This document shows, piece after piece, positions 17,280-42,016 of a DNA stretch of 42,545 nucleotides. The DNA lies in assembly GCA_001563915.1 (NCBI GenBank), contig LKMP01000007.1:1-42545 (forward strand). The letters run 5' to 3'. The notes beneath the pieces are model-generated. The model searched no databases. It had not been told where the DNA came from and was given only the letters and a program-made list of their open reading frames with translations. This DNA is from Nanohaloarchaea archaeon B1-Br10_U2g21. GTDB taxonomy: Archaea > Nanohalarchaeota > Nanosalinia > Nanosalinales > Nanosalinaceae. Numbering within the stretch: position 1 is the first letter of the stretch; each line of letters starts with the position of its first letter. The position numbers and the translations under genes are program-made.

Positions 17280-18587
17280 TTATGGTGTTAGTCTGCTTGG
17301 ATCCCTCGGGAATAAGATAGACTCTTTAACGTTTTCGAGCCCAGCTACCTGCTTAACCAGTCTATCAATACCCAGTCCGTATCCTCCATGAGGAGGCATA
17401 CCGAACTTGAATGATTCTAGGTAGAAGGAAACGTCTTCTGGGTCTACCCCATCCTTCTCCATTCCTGCTTCAAGCCTGTCGAGGTCGTGTTCTCGCTGCC
17501 CTCCTGAAGCAAGTTCTAGCCCTTTGTAAATAAGGTCAAATCTTCTACTTTGATATTCGTCTCCTTCACGAGCTTCCATATAATAGAACTTTTCATCAGG
17601 ATAACCAATGACAAAGAATGCGGGATGCCCTTTTTCCTCGAAGTACTTGCCTAGAAGTTTTTCGCCTTTGGTATCCAAGTCGCTTTCATCTTCGGGTACA
17701 TGACCAAACTCTTCTTCTAGGATTTCGCGTGCTTTTTCAAACTTGATTCTAGGGAAGTCTTCTTCTGGAATATTGAGGTCTATTCCTAATGTTTCAAGCT
17801 CATCCGCACATCGCTCTCCGACTTTTTCTAATGTATGTTTTAGAGAGCCTTCAAGTACATCCATCACATCATGCTGATCCTCAATAAACGCAATTTCCAC
17901 ATCAAACATTGATATTTCCGAGATGTGTCGCGAAGTCGCAAACTCTTCAGCTCGGAAAGCAGTACCGGTCTCATAGACCTTATCAAAACCAGCAGCCATC
18001 AACATCTGCTTGTAGAGCTGAGGGCTTTGAGATAGGAATGCCTCTTCTCCATAATAAACTACTGGGAAGAGTTCAGCTCCCCCTTCAGCACCCATCTTGG
18101 CGATAGTAGGAGTATTAATCTTGATGAAGTCGTTTTCGGCAAAGTATTCTTCCATTGATTCGATTATTTTCCCTCTCAATGAGAAAATTGCATGTTTTTC
18201 TGGCTGTCTCAAATCGATGAAACGATTGTCAAGTCTGGTGGAGAGATCTGAATCAATATCTTTGGATATTTCAAGAGGTAGAGGAGAATCGGCTTCTGAA
18301 ACTAGTTCAAATTCTTCTGGATGCATTTCTCTATCTCCGGGCGCCTGCTGATTTGCTTGGACGGTCCCTGAGGCCTGCACTACATCTTCACGGCCTACTC
18401 TCTGAGCTTTTTCAAACAACTCATTATTATCATCTTCTTTGAATGTTAACTGGATTTTTCCTTTACGATCTCTGAGTATTACAAATGTTATACCTCCAAG
18501 ATCTCTGATATCATGTATCCAGCCTGCAACTGTGAATTTTTCGCCATCGTCATCTTCTGTGATTTCGTTAGTATAGGTTCTCTCCAT
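17280..18587 (-). CDS. aspS: aspartyl-tRNA synthetase, probably non-discriminating
   Basis: Class IIb synthetase of archaeal length (435 aa). N-terminal OB-fold anticodon-binding domain ([13 protein letters not shown]), then motif 2 with [19 protein letters not shown], and motif 3 [11 protein letters not shown] at the end. Archaeal AspRS enzymes with His in the GW-x-H position of the OB fold generally charge both tRNA-Asp and tRNA-Asn, whereas those with Trp are specific; here it is His (WIHDI). The ATG at 18585-18587 is chosen because a TATA-like block lies about 30 nt upstream; an in-frame ATG at 18605 would fall before the predicted transcription start. Confidence 0.96.
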
Positions 18588-18616
18588 TTTTAATGCCACA
18601 TTCATCTCTTCGACGC

Positions 18617-18628
18617 AAATTTTTTTAT
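18617..18628. promoter_or_regulatory. shared bidirectional TATA block (aspS / dUTPase-like gene)
   Basis: One AT block (AAATTTTTTTAT) lies about 25 nt before the ATG of the rightward gene at 18653 and about 30 nt before the ATG of aspS at 18587. No second AT-rich stretch is present in the 65-nt gap, so both leaderless genes probably use the same element. Confidence 0.5.
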
Positions 18629-18652
18629 CAGCTCAGGACTCTCACTGGTTAT

Positions 18653-19165
18653 ATGGTACTTAACAGGGAACAGCTCAGAAAGATGATAGAGGAAAAAGAT
18701 CTTATACAGAATTACATAGACTTGGAGACACAGTTAACTCCACAAGGTTTTGATTTAACCGCGGGGGAAATACACAGGTATAATGGAAGTGGTAAGCTAG
18801 ATTTCTCGAATTCAGAACGGGAAATACCTGGATCAGAGAAAATTAGCCCTGAAAAAAAGAAAGGAGATGACTACGGCTGGTGGCATCTAGAGAAAGGAAT
18901 ATACAAGGTTGTGATGAATGAACGCGTAGATATACCAAATAATTTGACAGGTTTTGCTTATCCAAGGAGTTCTCTCTTGAGAATGGGATGCAGTATTGAA
19001 AACGCAGTCTGGGACTCAGGTTATATAGGTACAGGAGCGTTTATGCTGGTTGTAGAGAATCCGGAAGGGGTCAGTATAAAAGAAAATGCACGTGTAAATC
19101 AGTTATTGTTTCAAGAAACGGAGGAAACAGGTCAGGGTTACTCTGGCAGGTACCACGAAGGATAA
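18653..19165 (+). CDS. dUTPase / dCTP deaminase family protein
   Basis: A 170-aa trimeric nucleotide hydrolase of the DCD/DUT fold. Seen: QGFDLTAGEIHRY near the start, the phosphate-binding FAYPRSSLLRMG, then AVWDSGYIGTGAFMLVVEN, and late ARVNQLLFQE. True dCTP deaminases usually carry a catalytic Glu in the strand after the GY/GF-x-G turn (TLE); here the strand is AFMLVV, so the archaeal dUTPase reading (dUTP to dUMP, the ThyA substrate) is favoured. The start at 18653 is chosen because the longer frame (18593) begins inside the aspS leader and lies before the promoter. Confidence 0.87.
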   Translation: MVLNREQLRKMIEEKDLIQNYIDLETQLTPQGFDLTAGEIHRYNGSGKLDFSNSEREIPGSEKISPEKKKGDDYGWWHLEKGIYKVVMNERVDIPNNLTGFAYPRSSLLRMGCSIENAVWDSGYIGTGAFMLVVENPEGVSIKENARVNQLLFQETEETGQGYSGRYHEG

Positions 19166-19291: not shown

Positions 19292-19615
19292 ATGACGGAT
19301 GACGAGCAGCTTTACGTAAAAGTCAATGCACAGGGAGACATAGAACAAAGCCTAAATGAGCTAGAACTCAAAGTGGAAGACGTAAACAATGCGCTAGAAG
19401 TTCTTCAAGAAGTCCGAGCCCTGAAAGAAAACGCCGTTCAGAAAATATACAATGATCTCGCCGAGCTTAATAATGCGCTGCAGAGCATCGAGCAGCAATT
19501 ACCGGGGGTAACAGAATCAGAAAGACCTGTTGAAACGCCTGAAATAGATGGATCGGTCCAAGAACTTCACTCTGAGCTTGAAACTCTGCAGAGCGAACTA
19601 GAGCGGCTAAATTAG
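19292..19615 (+). CDS. small acidic coiled-coil protein, unknown
   Basis: A 107-aa protein made of heptad-rich helices (about residues 14-68 and 87-107) joined by a Pro-rich linker (PGVTESERPVETPEIDG). The only Met is the start. A TATA-like TTTTATAC lies about 24-31 nt upstream, so it has its own promoter. The T-run at about 19170 just after the previous gene would end that transcript. It is convergent with the large secreted protein gene, 9 nt apart. No family is recognised. Confidence 0.7.
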   Translation: MTDDEQLYVKVNAQGDIEQSLNELELKVEDVNNALEVLQEVRALKENAVQKIYNDLAELNNALQSIEQQLPGVTESERPVETPEIDGSVQELHSELETLQSELERLN

Positions 19616-19624
19616 AATATTTAG

Positions 19625-21415
19625 CTATTTTTGCTGTTTAAGTAAGCTAAGGTAGTGTTTAGTAAAGGTCTTAGAGATTTTCCAACTTAGTATTGCCGCT
19701 ATTAATCCGCCTGTTATAATGAATAGCATAGTAAACATGTTTTTTGCAGATTCAATACTATTATTAAAATCATTTAACCTGTTTTCCGTGGCGCAAATTG
19801 GATTTGTAAAGGTATAGTCATTAGCGAATAAGTTATTCAGGAAGCTAGGAAGTATGGAAATTTCGCAGTCTTGAGGTGCTTCAATTTCCCGAAGACTTTC
19901 AACTTTTTGACACTCATATCCTTCACCGTAAGGTTTAGCTCTTTCGTCCAATTCGCAAGCATCAACCTCAAATATGGAAATTCCGTCTTCAGCACATTCG
20001 TAAATTGCTTCTTGTCCGTTCTCTATTCTGACTGACTGTCTTCCTGGTGTACATTCTTTTTCAGGAGTGTAAGATGCAGTAAATGAGCTAGAAACGATTG
20101 AAGTAGTTTCAAGGTCCTTAATATTGAGATTACAAGTTTCATAGAACTCTTCAGAACCGTCAGTATCCAAATTTAGAAATACTGTGTCAGATTCTCCAGA
20201 TTTTAATGATGTGCGACTACTTACTCCAACTGTATCAAATTTATCACAGGAAGCTGAAACTTCAAAAGCGCCGGTTCCATTGCCATTATTTGCAACTTTT
20301 ACTTCCACAGAACCGCTTGAAAGACCATTAACTTTGGTATCTTCTATATTTATAATCTCTAAATCTGCAAATTTTCGCTGTAGTCCTACAAAATCACCAT
20401 TTAATCTAACGTTAAACTCTGAGATAAACCATTCGAACTCTGATTCAGGCCTATATTGAAAAATCCCATTTTGAAATTTGTTTTTGCCATCAGATACGTT
20501 TGACCCTTGAATAGGAGATTCTTCGTATTCTCTTGATGCGCTCAAAAAGTTATCTCTGGCTTCTTTGTTTTTCTTATCAGTCCAGTCTTCTATATTGAAA
20601 TTATCTTGTTCTCGCATCTCTTCAACTTTTTTAGGAGATTCATTTTCAATATAAGTTATGTAGCTATCAAATTCTTCTTTTTCAATTAATCTCCAGCCAT
20701 CTGTGCTTGAAAAAGCAGCTAGAGTATTTTGAGGGTTAGGAGCATTACTCCCGGTATCTTTCAATGAAACAAACTCGAGTTGAACATTATCATTCACTCT
20801 TTCCAAACTTCCATGTTCTGCGCCACTATTAGATAATCGAACTGTTTCGGCAGATTCACCTTCAACAGCTATAATCCATTCAGACTCAAATAACGTATCT
20901 GGAGGACTCTGTAAGAAACCAACGTTAAAAGTAGATTGGCTCATATTAGGTATCGCACAATTCACAATCCAGTCTCCCCAGGGGTTAACCAATCCTCTTC
21001 TATAAGTATTATAGTTGGGTGCTCCGCTATTATCAAGATCAAGGCAGTTATTATCGGCCCAAATCTGAGCTTTTTCTTTTGTGGAATGAGTAGTTCTCGT
21101 GTATTCTATAGGTTTTAAAGGCCTGAGACCTCTATCTTCTACTTCATACTCGGCATAGACATCGGATACTTTCGCGCTAATCTCAACACTTTGATTCGTA
21201 TTTTGATCAGATAAATCTGATAACTGGCTAGGTTCTAGATCTGCATGTATTTTCTCATCAGCGCCATCAATAACAAATTCGATAACTACGTGGCCCTGGT
21301 CAAAAAACTCTGAAGTTGTTTCAATATAGTCTACTTCCGATACATAAGATACAGAAGCTGGAACTATCAAAAACGTAGACATTAATAATACTATAGTTAA
21401 TACTGATTGCTTCAC
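19625..21415 (-). CDS. secreted single-pass, disulfide-rich protein; fusexin (Fsx1/HAP2)-like candidate
   Basis: A 596-aa type I membrane protein, start GTG. Signal peptide about residues 1-22; a beta-rich ectodomain 24-555; one transmembrane helix about 558-577; a basic tail of about 19 residues. Ten Cys at 124, 153, 390, 428, 455, 474, 487, 502, 517, 541, which could pair as neighbours. Residues 350-450 form an Ig-like domain (SVEVKVANNGNGTGAFEVSA, then C390, LKSGESDTVFLNL, C428) whose pattern matches domain III of HAP2 and archaeal fusexins. A small Cys-rich domain (455-541) precedes the membrane, as domain IV does in Fsx1. The fusexin call is inference; a generic CARDB-type surface protein is the alternative. 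Confidence 0.5.
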   Translation of the reverse strand: MKQSVLTIVLLMSTFLIVPASVSYVSEVDYIETTSEFFDQGHVVIEFVIDGADEKIHADLEPSQLSDLSDQNTNQSVEISAKVSDVYAEYEVEDRGLRPLKPIEYTRTTHSTKEKAQIWADNNCLDLDNSGAPNYNTYRRGLVNPWGDWIVNCAIPNMSQSTFNVGFLQSPPDTLFESEWIIAVEGESAETVRLSNSGAEHGSLERVNDNVQLEFVSLKDTGSNAPNPQNTLAAFSSTDGWRLIEKEEFDSYITYIENESPKKVEEMREQDNFNIEDWTDKKNKEARDNFLSASREYEESPIQGSNVSDGKNKFQNGIFQYRPESEFEWFISEFNVRLNGDFVGLQRKFADLEIINIEDTKVNGLSSGSVEVKVANNGNGTGAFEVSASCDKFDTVGVSSRTSLKSGESDTVFLNLDTDGSEEFYETCNLNIKDLETTSIVSSSFTASYTPEKECTPGRQSVRIENGQEAIYECAEDGISIFEVDACELDERAKPYGEGYECQKVESLREIEAPQDCEISILPSFLNNLFANDYTFTNPICATENRLNDFNNSIESAKNMFTMLFIITGGLIAAILSWKISKTFTKHYLSLLKQQK

Positions 21416-21465
21416 TAGTCACTCATCTCTTTACTTACTTCATCCGAGTTTTTCTAACTCAAACT

Positions 21466-21548
21466 TGCCGGGTGCAGGACTTGAACCTGCGAACCCCTGC
21501 GGGAACGGATCTTGAGTCCGCCGCTTTTGACCACTTAGCTAACCCGGC
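21466..21548 (-). tRNA. tRNA-Leu (anticodon CAA)
   Basis: A class II tRNA of 83 nt with a long variable arm. Acceptor GCCGGGT with ACCCGGC, anticodon loop CTCAAGA (CAA, Leu), T arm GCAGG-TTCAAGT-CCTGC, discriminator A. No CCA encoded and no intron. Confidence 0.95.
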
Positions 21549-21789
21549 ATATAATCAGTGAGGGATGTTCAACAGTTTTAAGCTATTAGATTTGAAGAGA
21601 TCTAGCATGTTCAGGAAAGAGCCTATACTTTGCCTTGATACTTGTAAATGCTAGATTTACCGGTTTGCAATAGGCGTAGATAAGGCATTACACATTAGTT
21701 TAAAGTCTTGAAGTATGCTGATAGCGGGTTTAGAAAAGTTTATCTTTAGAGGCATCTATCCAAGTTTCTGAAGCTGTATGAGGAGTCAT
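21549..21789. other. intergenic region, nothing recognised
   Basis: About 240 nt between tRNA-Leu and the HypA-like gene. No open frame with a credible start, no repeat and no tRNA or known RNA fold was seen. It contains the promoter side of tRNA-Leu and ends in the hairpin below. Confidence 0.5.
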
Positions 21790-23477: not shown

Positions 23478-24140
23478 ATGGTACGTGTTCTTGGAGTCGA
23501 TGAAGCAGGTAGAGGTCCGGTAATAGGAAGCATGTTTATAGCATCTTTTGAAACCGATGAAGAAATGCTGGGCCGGCTCACAGAAATAGGTGCAAAAGAT
23601 TCCAAAAAACTCTCTGAAAAAAAGAGAGAACAAATTAGGGACCAGCTAGATGATATTGGAGATTTTAAGCTCAAAGAAGTAAAGGCCTCACAGATAGATG
23701 AGATGAGGGAAGTAATGACTTTGAATGAGATAGAGTTAATGGGTTTTGTTGATGTCATAAAAGAGTCTGATGCGGATCAGTTTACCGTGGATTTACCTGA
23801 GCCTAATGGAAACAGGTTTATAAGAAAGATGAAGAAAGAGCTTCCCTCAAGGTTTGCTGAGAAGAAGTTTGTTGCAGAACATGGAGCGGATGATAACTAT
23901 CCTGAGGTCTCAGCAGCATCAATAGTTGCAAAGTCTGCGCGTGAAAAGCACGTACAGGTACTGAAGAATAAGTATGGCTACGATTTTGGATCAGGATATC
24001 CTCATGATAAACCCACAATTAAGTTCTTGGAAACGTATATGGAGGAAAAAGGAGAGCTGCCTGAAGAGACACGTATGTCTTGGAGTACTGCGGAAAAAAT
24101 TGTTGCAAAGAAAAATCAGAAAAAATTTGACGAGTTCTAA
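23478..24140 (+). CDS. rnhB: ribonuclease HII
   Basis: Cleaves the RNA strand of RNA-DNA hybrids and nicks at single ribonucleotides. A 220-aa archaeal-type enzyme. The N-terminal GVDEAGRGPVIGSMF motif carries the first two catalytic acids (D8, E9); GAKDSKKLSEKKREQ follows, and KFVAEHGADDNYPEVSAASIVAK provides the second half of the site with Asp and the conserved SIVAK. The late GSGYPHDKPTIKFL is also typical. Followed 9 nt later by endA. Confidence 0.96.
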   Translation: MVRVLGVDEAGRGPVIGSMFIASFETDEEMLGRLTEIGAKDSKKLSEKKREQIRDQLDDIGDFKLKEVKASQIDEMREVMTLNEIELMGFVDVIKESDADQFTVDLPEPNGNRFIRKMKKELPSRFAEKKFVAEHGADDNYPEVSAASIVAKSAREKHVQVLKNKYGYDFGSGYPHDKPTIKFLETYMEEKGELPEETRMSWSTAEKIVAKKNQKKFDEF

Positions 24141-37182: not shown

Positions 37183-38604
37183 ATGTCTATTATTGAAGAC
37201 TTCAAAGCACAGTCTGCGATTGAGTATTTGATGACTTATGGTTGGATGTTATTAGTTGTTGCTGTGGTCGGCGGCGCAATCTTTTCTGCAGTTGGTGAGG
37301 AAACTTTAGTAGAGGTAAGTGGTTTTGATGGAGAGGATGTTCAGGTTGAGGATTTTGCTTTCAGCGAGACGGGTAATCTGCGTTTCTCGATAGAGAGTTT
37401 TGATTCTGAACAAGTCACAATACAGGAAATATCTTTGGAAGATGAAGAGAATACTATTAGTTGGACTGGAGATCTGGACTTAGGTTCAATTGGAAGCAAC
37501 GAAATAATCCATATATCAGGCGTTGAAGAGGCTGAAAACGCCCAAATTTTGGATTTAGATATTACTTATGATTCTGGGAGCCTAGAAGACCTTAGTGTTT
37601 CCGGAGAGATTCAAGGAACACTAGAAATTGAGGATGATGTAAATATACTAGCGTCGAAACCCGAGGATCTACAATCTATCTATGAAGATTTGGAGGGGCA
37701 GGGTGAAGAAGGAGAACCATACCAAATCAATGACGTAGGCGAATTGCAAGCAATTGAAGAAAACACTGGTGAAGGAACCTACTATGAACTAGAAAAAGAT
37801 ATACACGCAATAGGCACACACTACTGGAACAATGGTAAAGGTTTTGATCCTATTGAAGATTTTGAAGGCAGCTTTAGTGGTTTAGAGAATGAAATAAAAG
37901 ACTTAGAAATAAATCTGCCCAACACAAATACAGTAGGTTTATTTTCTGATACAGGAAGTGATGCTGTAGTTACAGATATTGGCGTTGTAAATGCAGATGT
38001 TGTGGGAAAAGACAATACTGGTGTGCTTATAGGAAGAAATAGGGGAGAAGTCAGTAGTTCATATGCTTCTGGGGGTAGTGTAGTAAAAGAAAATAGCGGA
38101 GGTTTAGTAGGTCGAAACACAGGGTCTATTCATTATTCTTTTGCAAATGTTGATCTGAATATACAGAATAGCGGCAGGACTAGAGCAGGAGGAGTAGTAG
38201 GGCTTAATTCAGGCGAGGTAAATAATTCATATTCATTTGGAGATGTTGATCCAAATGATGATGCTGAGAGGGTTGGAGGTTTTGTAGGTCAAAACTGGAA
38301 TGGAGGACTAATAGAAAACTCATATTCTACTGGTTTTGTTGATCAAGGCGGCCAAAACATAGGAGGTTTTCTAGGTGAAGACCGTCCTGAAGGAACAGAC
38401 AACAATAATTACTGGGATGTGGAAGAAAGCGGACAGTCTTCCAGTGATGGAGCCGCCATAGCTTTGAATACAGAAGATATGCAAGGAAGTGGTGGCCCTA
38501 GCAACATGGAGAATATGGACTTTATAAACACGTGGGATACTGTTGAAGACGATTATCCTATTCTTCAGAGTATTGGTGAGGAAGTCCAGCTTGACGCCAG
38601 ATAG
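37183..38604 (+). CDS. class III prepilin with GLUG-repeat adhesin head
   Basis: A 473-aa surface protein. The N-terminus has a class III (type IV pilin-like) signal: short charged lead, then QSAIEYLMTYGW and a hydrophobic helix; an EppA-type peptidase should cut before Gln10. After a beta-rich stalk (residues 40-160) there are GLUG-type repeats at roughly 280-410, each a GG-x-V/L-G turn followed by a SY/SF strand (for example GGLVGRNTGSIHYSF and GGVVGLNSGEVNNSYSFGDV). Such proteins assemble at pilus tips and bind surfaces. It shares a promoter with the divergent 161-aa gene, and a second prepilin follows. Confidence 0.87.
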   Translation: MSIIEDFKAQSAIEYLMTYGWMLLVVAVVGGAIFSAVGEETLVEVSGFDGEDVQVEDFAFSETGNLRFSIESFDSEQVTIQEISLEDEENTISWTGDLDLGSIGSNEIIHISGVEEAENAQILDLDITYDSGSLEDLSVSGEIQGTLEIEDDVNILASKPEDLQSIYEDLEGQGEEGEPYQINDVGELQAIEENTGEGTYYELEKDIHAIGTHYWNNGKGFDPIEDFEGSFSGLENEIKDLEINLPNTNTVGLFSDTGSDAVVTDIGVVNADVVGKDNTGVLIGRNRGEVSSSYASGGSVVKENSGGLVGRNTGSIHYSFANVDLNIQNSGRTRAGGVVGLNSGEVNNSYSFGDVDPNDDAERVGGFVGQNWNGGLIENSYSTGFVDQGGQNIGGFLGEDRPEGTDNNNYWDVEESGQSSSDGAAIALNTEDMQGSGGPSNMENMDFINTWDTVEDDYPILQSIGEEVQLDAR

Positions 38605-38840: not shown

Positions 38841-39923
38841 GTGGAACTAGGCGGATTTCTAGGACAGTCGGCTATTGAATACCTGATGACTTATGGGTGG
38901 ATGCTGCTTATCATCGCTATAGCGGGAGGAGCTGTGTTTTCAATGGTAGATGATCAGAGTGTTGAGAGTGTTTCGGGTTTTGATTCTAGTCATGTTAGTG
39001 TTCAGGATTTCGGTGTATCTACTCAGAGTGGTTTGATGTTTGAGATGCAGGATTCTATAGGTCAAGTAAAAATCAATGAAATAACTGTTAGTAACTCGGG
39101 CAACACTAACACAACCTACAAGTTAAATCAGGATGTTTCTAGTGAAAATATGATTAATTTGCCCGGCATTAATCCTTCAGAAGATTCTAATATGCTGGAT
39201 GTGGAGGTAAAGTATGATTCTAATAATTTAGATAATCTGACAACTACAGGAACGGTAACAGGTACCTTGGATCTGGATGAAAACTTCAATAACAGAACGT
39301 TGATTATGAATGGTCTCAAAGGATACTGGCCGCTAGACCAAGTATACACTTCAGGAGAAACAGTATATGACATATCAGAAAACCAAAACCATGGGGAAAA
39401 AGAAGATCATGAATGGGGTGATGGAGTTTATGGAATGGCTTTAGAGTTAGATGGAGAAGATAATTATCTAAAATTATCAAGTGATACGAGCCAAGTTGTT
39501 AGTGATGCGGGAGAATATACTATAACATTTTGGTCCTTTGCGAATTTTGATGATACGGGTACTTATCACCAGATAGATTTATTAGACAATGCTAATATTA
39601 TGGTGCGAGTAAGAGATCAGAGACAAAGCATAAGACAAGGAGGAACATCATATGACAGCCAGTGGGATTTTCCAGTAAACGAGTGGGTTATGACTACTAT
39701 GACTTGGAATGGTAGTACTATTCGCACATATAAGAATGGACAGTTTCAAACCGCTATTGATGACGTTAGTCTCGGACAGCAGGGAGCTCATGATGCTATA
39801 GGTCATAGAGCTTCTTCTTCTGATAGGCATTGGGATGGTAAAATAGATGAGGTTCGTGTTTATGATCGTGCTTTATCTCAGGATGAGGTTGAGACTATTT
39901 ATGAGGAAGGAAGTGTAGAGTGA
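38841..39923 (+). CDS. class III prepilin with LamG/concanavalin-like lectin head
   Basis: A 360-aa surface protein starting at GTG. Same N-terminal signal as the previous gene (GQSAIEYLMTYGW, cut expected before Gln9) and the same stalk pattern (VSGFDSSHVSVQDF against VSGFDGEDVQVEDF), then a LamG-like domain at about residues 155-355 (GYWPLDQVYTSGETVYDISE, EYTITFWSFANFDD, DGKIDEVRVYDRALSQDE). The lectin fold suggests binding of glycans on another cell. A TATA-like TTTTTAAATT lies about 19-28 nt upstream. Confidence 0.88.
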   Translation: MELGGFLGQSAIEYLMTYGWMLLIIAIAGGAVFSMVDDQSVESVSGFDSSHVSVQDFGVSTQSGLMFEMQDSIGQVKINEITVSNSGNTNTTYKLNQDVSSENMINLPGINPSEDSNMLDVEVKYDSNNLDNLTTTGTVTGTLDLDENFNNRTLIMNGLKGYWPLDQVYTSGETVYDISENQNHGEKEDHEWGDGVYGMALELDGEDNYLKLSSDTSQVVSDAGEYTITFWSFANFDDTGTYHQIDLLDNANIMVRVRDQRQSIRQGGTSYDSQWDFPVNEWVMTTMTWNGSTIRTYKNGQFQTAIDDVSLGQQGAHDAIGHRASSSDRHWDGKIDEVRVYDRALSQDEVETIYEEGSVE

Positions 39924-40165: not shown

Positions 40166-42016
40166 ATGCAAGTAGGAACTATTGAAGGCGATGTCAATAC
40201 TTCTTCATTTACTTTTAGAGCGGTGGAAGAGGTAGGGAAATTCGATTTTGTATCGGTGAAAAGTAACGAAAATTGGATTCTGGCTCAGGTAGATCAAGTC
40301 ACTAAACATGCTTCAGGTGAGACTACGGCTACAGCAAACATCATAGGTTATAGAGATAAAGGGTTGACAAGAGCACCTAGACACGTAATTGAACCGGACT
40401 CAATAGTTTATAAGGCTGACCAAGAACTTATATCGGATACGCTAGGGCTTAATGAGGCGGGCCTTAAAATTGGATCTCTAGAAACTAATCCTGATATAGA
40501 TATAATGGTGGATGCGGAAGATTTCTACAAGCATTTTGCAGTTCTTGCACAGACTGGAGCAGGTAAATCATATTTATCTTCAATATTGGTTGAGGAAATG
40601 CTTGAAGACGAGTTCCCAGTACTTATAATGGATCCTCACGGAGAATATCCCTCATTAGCACAGCCTAATCCTGAGGTGGAGGATGGCAAAAGTTATCCGG
40701 TTAAGGAATACTCTCCTAATACAGATATTAATCATGGTGCGTTGCCTTTGAAGTTTTCATCTGTAAACTTAGATAAAAAACAGTTGACGACTTTGATTAC
40801 GGATTCTTTGACGAATTCTCAGATGGGGGTACTCTATACGGCGCTTAAAAGATTAAATGATAAGGGAGAAGATTATAACTTGCTTGATGTACAGGATGCA
40901 GTATCTATAGAAGAGTCTACAGCAAAATGGAATCTTTTGAATTATCTTGAGCAACTAGATGATTCTGGATTGTTTGCAGAAGAGGCAATAGATTTGAAAG
41001 ATTTAGTAGTGCCTGGCCAAGCGTCAGTGATTAATTTAAAGGCGGTTGAACCTGAAGCAACTGAAATGACAGCATATTTATTGGCTGAGAGGCTTTTCGA
41101 GCTGCGTAAGCGTAACAGAATCCCGCCATTCATTATGGTTATAGAGGAAGCACATAATTTTGTGCCTGAAAAAGGGTTTGGCCAGGCAGTCTCTAACCCA
41201 ATTTTAAGGAAGATTGCGTCTGAAGGTAGAAAGTTTGGTATGGGCTTGGGGGTTATAAGTCAGAGACCTGCTCGAATTGATAAGAATGTATTGAGCCAGT
41301 GTAATACTCAGTTTATTTTGCGAGTCACTAATCCTAATGACTTGAAGGCAATTTCTAAGTCTTTTGAAGGGGTTAATTCTGCAGTTGAGGAGATGATCAC
41401 GTCTCTCCCTCCAGGAGTGGCGTTCTTGCTTGGAAATGATTATCCTGTTATGACTGATGTTAGAACTAGGAGAACAGTTCACGGGGGCGAAACCCAAACT
41501 GCTGAGTCATACGTAGAGCAGGTAGATATCTCAGTTTTCCATACTGCGAAAACTCTTCCTGAGATAGAGGCGCGTTATGGTGAAAAGTTCTCTACGGCTT
41601 ACTATCCATTATATGTGGCGAAAAAAGATGGTAGAGAACTTCTTGTGGACGGAGTAAATGGCGAGGTGAAGGCTTCGAGAGCTATAGTGTCAGAATCAGA
41701 TGGAGAGCTATTTGAGATGCTGAAACAAGGTAAAGAAAGATCTGAGATTGTTGAGAGGCTTGATATTTCGCCTACGAAACTTGCTGAAAGAATTAATGAG
41801 TTAGAGAAAAAAGATCTTTTAGAGGATGGAGAGCCTAAAGAATCTGTACTTGAGATTGAGGTATTTGAAGAAAGTGTTGCGGCTGATGATTTGATAGATT
41901 TTGAAGTGTCTCTTGAGGAGCTTGAAGACGAGTTTAAAGACGTTGAGGAGATCTACTATCCTTACTATAGGTCTGGTGAAACCGTGTTTGATCCTGTGCT
42001 GGGAGAGGAAATTTAA
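40166..42016 (+). CDS. HerA-type DNA translocase/ATPase (DUF87)
   Basis: A 616-aa hexameric FtsK/HerA-family motor involved in DNA end resection or other DNA transport. N-terminal HAS-barrel (residues 1-110), then Walker A QTGAGKS (129-135), MDPHGEYPSL, Walker B IMVIEEAHNFVP with the catalytic Glu, and IASEGRKFGMGLGVISQRPARIDKNV containing the arginine finger region. An added C-terminal winged helix (about 520-560) precedes an acidic tail with YYPYYRSG. HerA is usually paired with NurA, but none is in this window. Confidence 0.93.
   Translation: MQVGTIEGDVNTSSFTFRAVEEVGKFDFVSVKSNENWILAQVDQVTKHASGETTATANIIGYRDKGLTRAPRHVIEPDSIVYKADQELISDTLGLNEAGLKIGSLETNPDIDIMVDAEDFYKHFAVLAQTGAGKSYLSSILVEEMLEDEFPVLIMDPHGEYPSLAQPNPEVEDGKSYPVKEYSPNTDINHGALPLKFSSVNLDKKQLTTLITDSLTNSQMGVLYTALKRLNDKGEDYNLLDVQDAVSIEESTAKWNLLNYLEQLDDSGLFAEEAIDLKDLVVPGQASVINLKAVEPEATEMTAYLLAERLFELRKRNRIPPFIMVIEEAHNFVPEKGFGQAVSNPILRKIASEGRKFGMGLGVISQRPARIDKNVLSQCNTQFILRVTNPNDLKAISKSFEGVNSAVEEMITSLPPGVAFLLGNDYPVMTDVRTRRTVHGGETQTAESYVEQVDISVFHTAKTLPEIEARYGEKFSTAYYPLYVAKKDGRELLVDGVNGEVKASRAIVSESDGELFEMLKQGKERSEIVERLDISPTKLAERINELEKKDLLEDGEPKESVLEIEVFEESVAADDLIDFEVSLEELEDEFKDVEEIYYPYYRSGETVFDPVLGEEI

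Follow-up and report, generated by a model that had tools for sequence, protein, structure and literature searches.

Does the small genome of Nanohaloarchaea archaeon B1-Br10_U2g21 carry a membrane-fusion protein of its own, and if so, is the gene a chromosomal resident and with which cell would its product fuse? Gametes fuse and many viruses enter cells by means of fusexins, HAP2 being the egg-sperm fusogen, and the origin of the family in archaea, eukaryotes or viruses is debated. We analyzed one entire contig (C4, 42,545 bp; the window) of a 0.82-Mb genome that is 92% complete. The small genome, its acidic proteins and archaeal genes, and a phylum of 28 genomes of similarly small size point to a nanohaloarchaeon. 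An open reading frame (fsx1) runs on its minus strand from a GTG start at 21415 to a stop at 19625-19627 (596 codons), exactly where a first-pass annotation, made from the sequence alone, had placed a possible fusexin. The opposite strand is interrupted by stop codons throughout this interval.

To establish the identity of the protein, all solved structures were searched with its single sequence. One real match was obtained with phmmer, to Fusexin1 (7P4L, E = 3e-20), in which residues 28-505 align with residues 6-488 of the chain. Antibody matches in the same search reflect plain Ig similarity (E > 0.02), and a sequence search of the solved structures with domains III-IV alone returned nothing. 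We then used an independent profile, calculated from seven haloarchaeal Fsx1s and 7P4L with the window protein left out, which matched the fsx1 frame with E = 9.5e-72 (237.7 bits, model positions 6-576 of 654). The profile matched neither another frame of the window nor any of 500 shuffled versions of the protein, indicating that the match is not due to chance. The best pairwise match by BLASTP is a haloarchaeal Fsx1 (L073, 27% identity over 530 residues, 6e-49), and the window protein is divergent, at 18-26% identity to the other Fsx1s in the alignment. The Pfam HAP2-GCS1 family (PF10699) scored 2.4e-6 and 26.8 bits, just under the gathering cut-off of 27.4, and the window protein was the only one of eight archaeal proteins scanned to match. 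The protein is related to the HAP2/GCS1 family and is not itself a HAP2. Plain CARDB/Ig repeats or best matches to adhesins, the outcome held out by the first-pass annotation as evidence against a fusexin, were not found, CARDB scoring merely 0.034. The 7P4L match, the profile, BLASTP and the near-threshold Pfam score agree with the cysteine pattern, loop position and domain III-IV fold described below, confirming that 19625-21415 encodes an archaeal fusexin, Fsx1, of the Fsx1/HAP2 family that had been proposed.

Inspection of the alignment revealed the anatomy of the protein (Table 1). It has ten cysteines (124, 153, 390, 428, 455, 474, 487, 502, 517 and 541), all of them at the positions first read from the sequence. 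Eight correspond to those that form the four Fsx1 disulfides, C124-C153 in domain II, C390-C428 in domain III, and C455-C474 with C487-C502 in domain IV, and all eight are invariant across nine aligned Fsx1s. The five neighboring pairs proposed at first thus reduce to four that follow the Fsx1 disulfide pattern; the fifth (517/541), in the stem, is shared with a single relative (L075) among the nine sequences aligned. Hydropathy agrees with the signal peptide, single transmembrane helix and short basic tail of the first-pass annotation, in the form of a hydrophobic N-terminus, a stretch at about 558-578 and a short lysine-rich C-terminal tail. The Ig-like domain with the HAP2/Fsx1 domain III pattern likewise holds at about 350-450. 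The Cys-rich membrane-proximal module is present, but is actually Fsx1 domain IV (about 450-505), and a stem of about 50 residues leads from it to the helix. The net charge of the ectodomain is -58.

Table 1 Features of the fsx1 locus in the window, and large secreted proteins at haloarchaeal fsx1 loci (coordinates preceded by a locus label).
Feature	Coordinates	Strand	Basis and remarks
fsx1 (archaeal fusexin)	19625..21415	-	596 aa, GTG start; phmmer 7P4L 3e-20; haloarchaeal Fsx1 profile 9.5e-72; BLASTP 6e-49
Signal peptide-like N-terminus, residues ~1-24	21344..21415	-	Hydropathy; alignment to other Fsx1 signal peptides
Domains I and II, residues 25-349, pair C124-C153	20369..21343	-	Full-length 7P4L alignment; cysteine columns
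Putative fusion loop GLVNPW, residues 141-146	20978..20995	-	Alignment to Fsx1 143-SVTSPV-148
Domain III (Ig-like, C390-C428) and domain IV (C455-C474, C487-C502), residues 350-505	19901..20368	-	AlphaFold2 single-sequence pLDDT 74.2; Foldseek; Pfam HAP2-GCS1
Membrane-proximal stem, residues 506-557, with C517 and C541	19745..19900	-	Sequence
Single transmembrane helix, residues 558-578	19682..19744	-	Hydropathy
aspS (aspartyl-type class II tRNA synthetase)	17280..18605	-	Pfam; block start; in 21/28 genomes, 84-92% identity within genus
dcd (dCTP deaminase-like)	18593..19165	+	Pfam; syntenic in relatives
Short coiled-coil protein gene, left neighbor of fsx1	19292..19615	+	No Pfam family; adjoins tRNA-Leu in relatives
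tRNA-Leu (CAA), right neighbor of fsx1	21465..21549	-	ARAGORN, Rfam; same tRNA at relatives' empty site
rnhB (RNase HII)	23478..24140	+	Pfam; right end of conserved block
Large secreted protein near haloarchaeal fsx1	L090 5024-7918; L091 2312-6745; L092 1-4121; L094 92-3973; L095 11611-15456		

The fusion loop of Fsx1, 143-SVTSPV-148, was defined by mutation, and replacing it abolishes fusion (PMC9259645). A candidate for the hydrophobic loop that was to be sought at the tip of domain II was located by alignment at this position: P145, D148 and C153 of the window protein are in register with P147, D150 and C155 of Fsx1, which places GLVNPW opposite SVTSPV. The corresponding sequences differ among haloarchaeal Fsx1s, and GLVNPW is a putative fusion loop by its position and hydrophobic composition, not by identity. 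At the C-terminus, the window protein has one helix and lacks the three-helix arrangement of Fsx1. The neighboring gene ends 10 bases past the fsx1 stop, so no additional helices are hidden by a frameshift. Fsx1 in which the three transmembrane helices are swapped for one foreign transmembrane helix or a GPI anchor still fuses cells (PMC9259645); thus the single helix is no argument against function.

Predicted structures agree with this assignment for the membrane-proximal half of the ectodomain. A model of residues 350-505, calculated with AlphaFold2 without alignment or templates, had a pLDDT of 74.2, and its best solved matches in Foldseek were chains A-C of 7P4L (E = 3.3e-11). Arabidopsis HAP2 (5ow3) ranked 32nd (E = 7.0e-4, 2.2 Å over 104 columns) in a list that includes many generic Ig-like folds, and a structural search of BFVD gave generic Ig-like matches only. 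The full-length model without alignment had a pLDDT of 40.6 and was discarded. The structural match to Fsx1 and HAP2 suggested for the whole ectodomain is therefore borne out for domains III-IV, and for domains I-II a class II fold is predicted from the alignment to 7P4L. These features also bear on whether the protein might be a fusexin-fold surface protein that serves as an adhesin or receptor-binding protein and has no fusion activity. Such a role would suit the resemblance of Fsx1 domain IV to chitin-binding folds, the one transmembrane helix in place of three and the high divergence, but we consider it improbable, as the domain order is conserved throughout and the Leu, Val and Trp residues in the loop at the fusion-loop position suit fusion, not adhesion.

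To get a broader picture of the distribution of Fsx1, we searched 28 genomes of the phylum (0.5-1.2 Mb) and found it in B1-Br10_U2g21 and in none of the 27 others. Among 394 sampled Halobacteria genomes, seven contain a convincing Fsx1 (L070-L076); an eighth row of that search (G924) was a short match inside a 1617-codon frame and was dropped. No further Fsx1 was found in a 394-genome archaeal sample that apparently contained no Halobacteria, in scans of genome collections with peptide and DNA patterns, or, as relatives of the protein, in collections of viruses, phages and plasmids. Two weak profile matches (L003 from G020 and L004 from G006) proved on inspection to be CARDB/Ig-type secreted proteins, and three others (L005, L006 and L077) matched short domain III stretches only and were rejected on coverage. 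The most divergent haloarchaeal Fsx1 (L076, from G793) has one in-frame TGA counted in the match and a composition unlike the rest. In an unrooted tree of eight or nine rows without an outgroup, the window Fsx1 stands alone on the longest branch; with this long branch and no HAP2 root its position is uncertain, and a haloarchaeal origin or an older one would both fit. In the literature searched, outside the table of MAG fusexins of Moi et al., we found no report linking a fusexin to nanohaloarchaea; that paper states that its MAG fusexin matches cover all major archaeal superphyla (PMC9259645).

The genomic setting of fsx1 was compared with that in relatives by locating aspS and RNase HII in the 28 genomes and reading the interval between them. 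In the window, the gene order is smc, aspS, dCTP deaminase, the short coiled-coil gene, fsx1, tRNA-Leu(CAA), a zinc-ribbon gene and tRNA-Met, followed by a gene of no assigned family, RNase HII, a tRNA-intron endonuclease and a rhomboid protease. Between the coiled-coil gene and tRNA-Leu lie 1,849 bp, a space filled by fsx1. The same interval without fsx1 measures about 98 bp in a member of the same genus (G001), and 72 bp in G011, about 90 in G017, about 10 in G013, about 78 in G008 and about 92 in G015. Thus the block of housekeeping genes is conserved apart from one additional gene, fsx1, at a point where six family members have 10-98 bp. The contig of the closest species (G002, 78% complete) stops short of the slot, and no fsx1 was found elsewhere in that genome. 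G002 and B1-Br10_U2g21 share 92% identity in aspS and only 59% in RNase HII, the two genes being on separate contigs in G002 (C11 and C20); a binning error or replacement of one of them may be the cause.

A different gene occupies the same gap in G012, beside an intron-bearing tRNA-Leu, indicating that the slot accepts genes. The interval from the coiled-coil to the zinc-ribbon gene there (L082, 3827-5552) contains a methyltransferase-like gene, a tRNA-Leu apparently with an intron, which ARAGORN called tRNA-Val, and a homing-endonuclease-like ORF. A sigma-70 promoter scan was uninformative, the DNA being archaeal.

The conserved flanks speak to a further explanation, that the gene is foreign to the genome through a binning error or a chimeric contig. 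It is known from this one genome, and published MAG fusexins have met the same caution. However, it lies in the middle of a 42.5-kb contig, exactly within an intergenic gap flanked left and right by syntenic core genes. Its codon usage matches that of its neighbors, and its GC content is 36%, compared to 50-54% at the sampled haloarchaeal Fsx1 loci. We regard this explanation as barely credible.

Tyrosine recombinases leave a duplicated tRNA end, the 3' end of a tRNA gene being a usual integration site. We looked for such an att-like duplication of the tRNA-Leu end at the site and in relatives and did not find it. A search that was positive in 14 of 14 controls detected no tyrosine recombinase or integrase in the genome (92% complete), and in codon usage fsx1 conforms to its neighbors (z = 1.1). 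Moi et al. (PMC9259645) described haloarchaeal fsx1 as part of integrated mobile elements that also encode XerC/D recombinases, HerA and VirB4; they were cautious about MAG assignments to other archaea and to bacteria, as the contigs resembled such elements. The window fsx1 does not have this integrated-element setting, which is an association in cultured haloarchaea and not a feature of the protein family, and it is free of the objection raised to the MAG contigs. Its position between conserved core genes indicates that fusexins exist outside haloarchaea as resident genes.

The gene might still be the remnant of a fusexin-carrying mobile element at tRNA-Leu that lost its other genes and is now neutral or decaying. 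It directly adjoins the 3' end of a tRNA gene, a different single gene sits in the same gap of G012, and the distribution of Fsx1 is patchy. Decay is, however, at odds with an intact frame of 596 codons that keeps all structural cysteines at about 75-80% divergence, which implies selection, and with the host-like codon usage and lack of recombinase and tRNA duplication described above. This history is decidedly unlikely, and we prefer to regard fsx1 as a resident gene.

Other genes in the window are recorded here as separate observations. A HerA-type helicase (40166-42016, plus strand) adjoins tRNA-Val and has the most deviant codon usage among the long window genes (z = 6.8). Two neighboring proteins (37183-38604 and 38841-39923, plus strand) have a pilin-like start (QSAIEYLMTYGWMLL) and adhesion-type domains, GLUG repeats in the first and a laminin-G/concanavalin-like domain in the second. 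The GLUG part resembles large secreted proteins near fsx1 in three haloarchaeal regions (L092, L094 and L095), probably through a shared repeat only.

Comparison with the known systems defines what is distinctive here. The whole ectodomain aligns with that of Fusexin1, with the same order of domains I-IV, the eight cysteines, the fusion-loop position and a strongly negative charge (-67 in the published protein; 7P4L, PMC9259645). The window protein differs in its 23-25% identity to Fusexin1, its extra membrane-proximal cysteine pair, its one transmembrane helix against three, and its encoding by a lone chromosomal gene in a small DPANN-like genome, whereas Fusexin1 belongs to an integrated mobile element. 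The haloarchaeal proteins L070-L076 are of the same family by the profile, and L075 also has membrane-proximal cysteines, but their C-termini are longer, with further hydrophobic helices. In five of the seven haloarchaeal regions, a very large secreted protein lies within a few kb of fsx1 and may be a partner of the fusogen; none such stands beside the window fsx1. With HAP2/GCS1 the protein shares the domain III match to PF10699, the Foldseek match to 5ow3 and a single transmembrane helix. It differs in having domain IV, which HAP2 lacks, in its Pfam score below the cut-off and in a cytoplasmic tail without cysteine. New here are the chromosomal, element-free setting, the single anchor and the symbiont-type genome.

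Taken together, the homology over the whole ectodomain, the eight cysteines, the loop position, the secretion signal, the anchor and the lone place in a housekeeping block suggest that the gene product is likely to be a genuine class II membrane fusogen of the Fsx1 type, encoded by what is now a resident of the chromosome in a DPANN cell, probably a nanohaloarchaeon. Its fusion activity is assigned by analogy. As in Fsx1 and HAP2, the protein would be exported and stand on the cell surface, the GLVNPW loop at the tip of domain II would insert into the facing membrane, three subunits would assemble, and domain III would fold back so that the two membranes merge.

We are less sure of the membrane partner. 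Tentatively, we infer that it is another halophilic archaeon contacted by the cell, most likely a haloarchaeal host. Presumed relatives depend on haloarchaeal hosts; their images hint at fused cells that share a membrane, and rRNA passes from one cell to the other (PMC6642349); in a presumed member of the group, symbiont contents appear inside the host (PMC11291902). These phenotypes may bear on fsx1 by analogy, the fusexin being known here from one genome. Published Fsx1 is bilateral in hamster cells, the protein being needed on both partners (PMC9259645). Since only 7 of 394 sampled haloarchaea carry it, the window protein would have to act differently, from one side only, to fuse with a typical host. 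The same two facts favor fusion among nanohaloarchaeal sister cells, a bilateral, mating-like exchange of DNA not involving the host, and gene exchange has been proposed as the role of haloarchaeal fusexins (PMC9259645). On the other side, fsx1 has no DNA-transfer genes alongside, the closest relatives have no copy, and small host-attached cells would have to meet often enough. We regard sister-cell fusion as somewhat unlikely and nevertheless as a serious rival to fusion with the host. The reading as a whole, in which a HAP2-family fusogen was domesticated as a chromosomal gene by an obligate symbiont, itself an archaeon, and serves it to fuse with its host archaeon in a natural cross-species fusexin fusion, is rather doubtful.

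With a resident fsx1, this probably host-dependent symbiont may be equipped to fuse its membrane with that of another cell. If functional, Fsx1 would give a concrete candidate, at the molecular level, for the way in which nanohaloarchaea come to share the cytoplasm of the host or to enter it. Microscopy raised this question with no fusogen known, and Fsx1 would make it testable.
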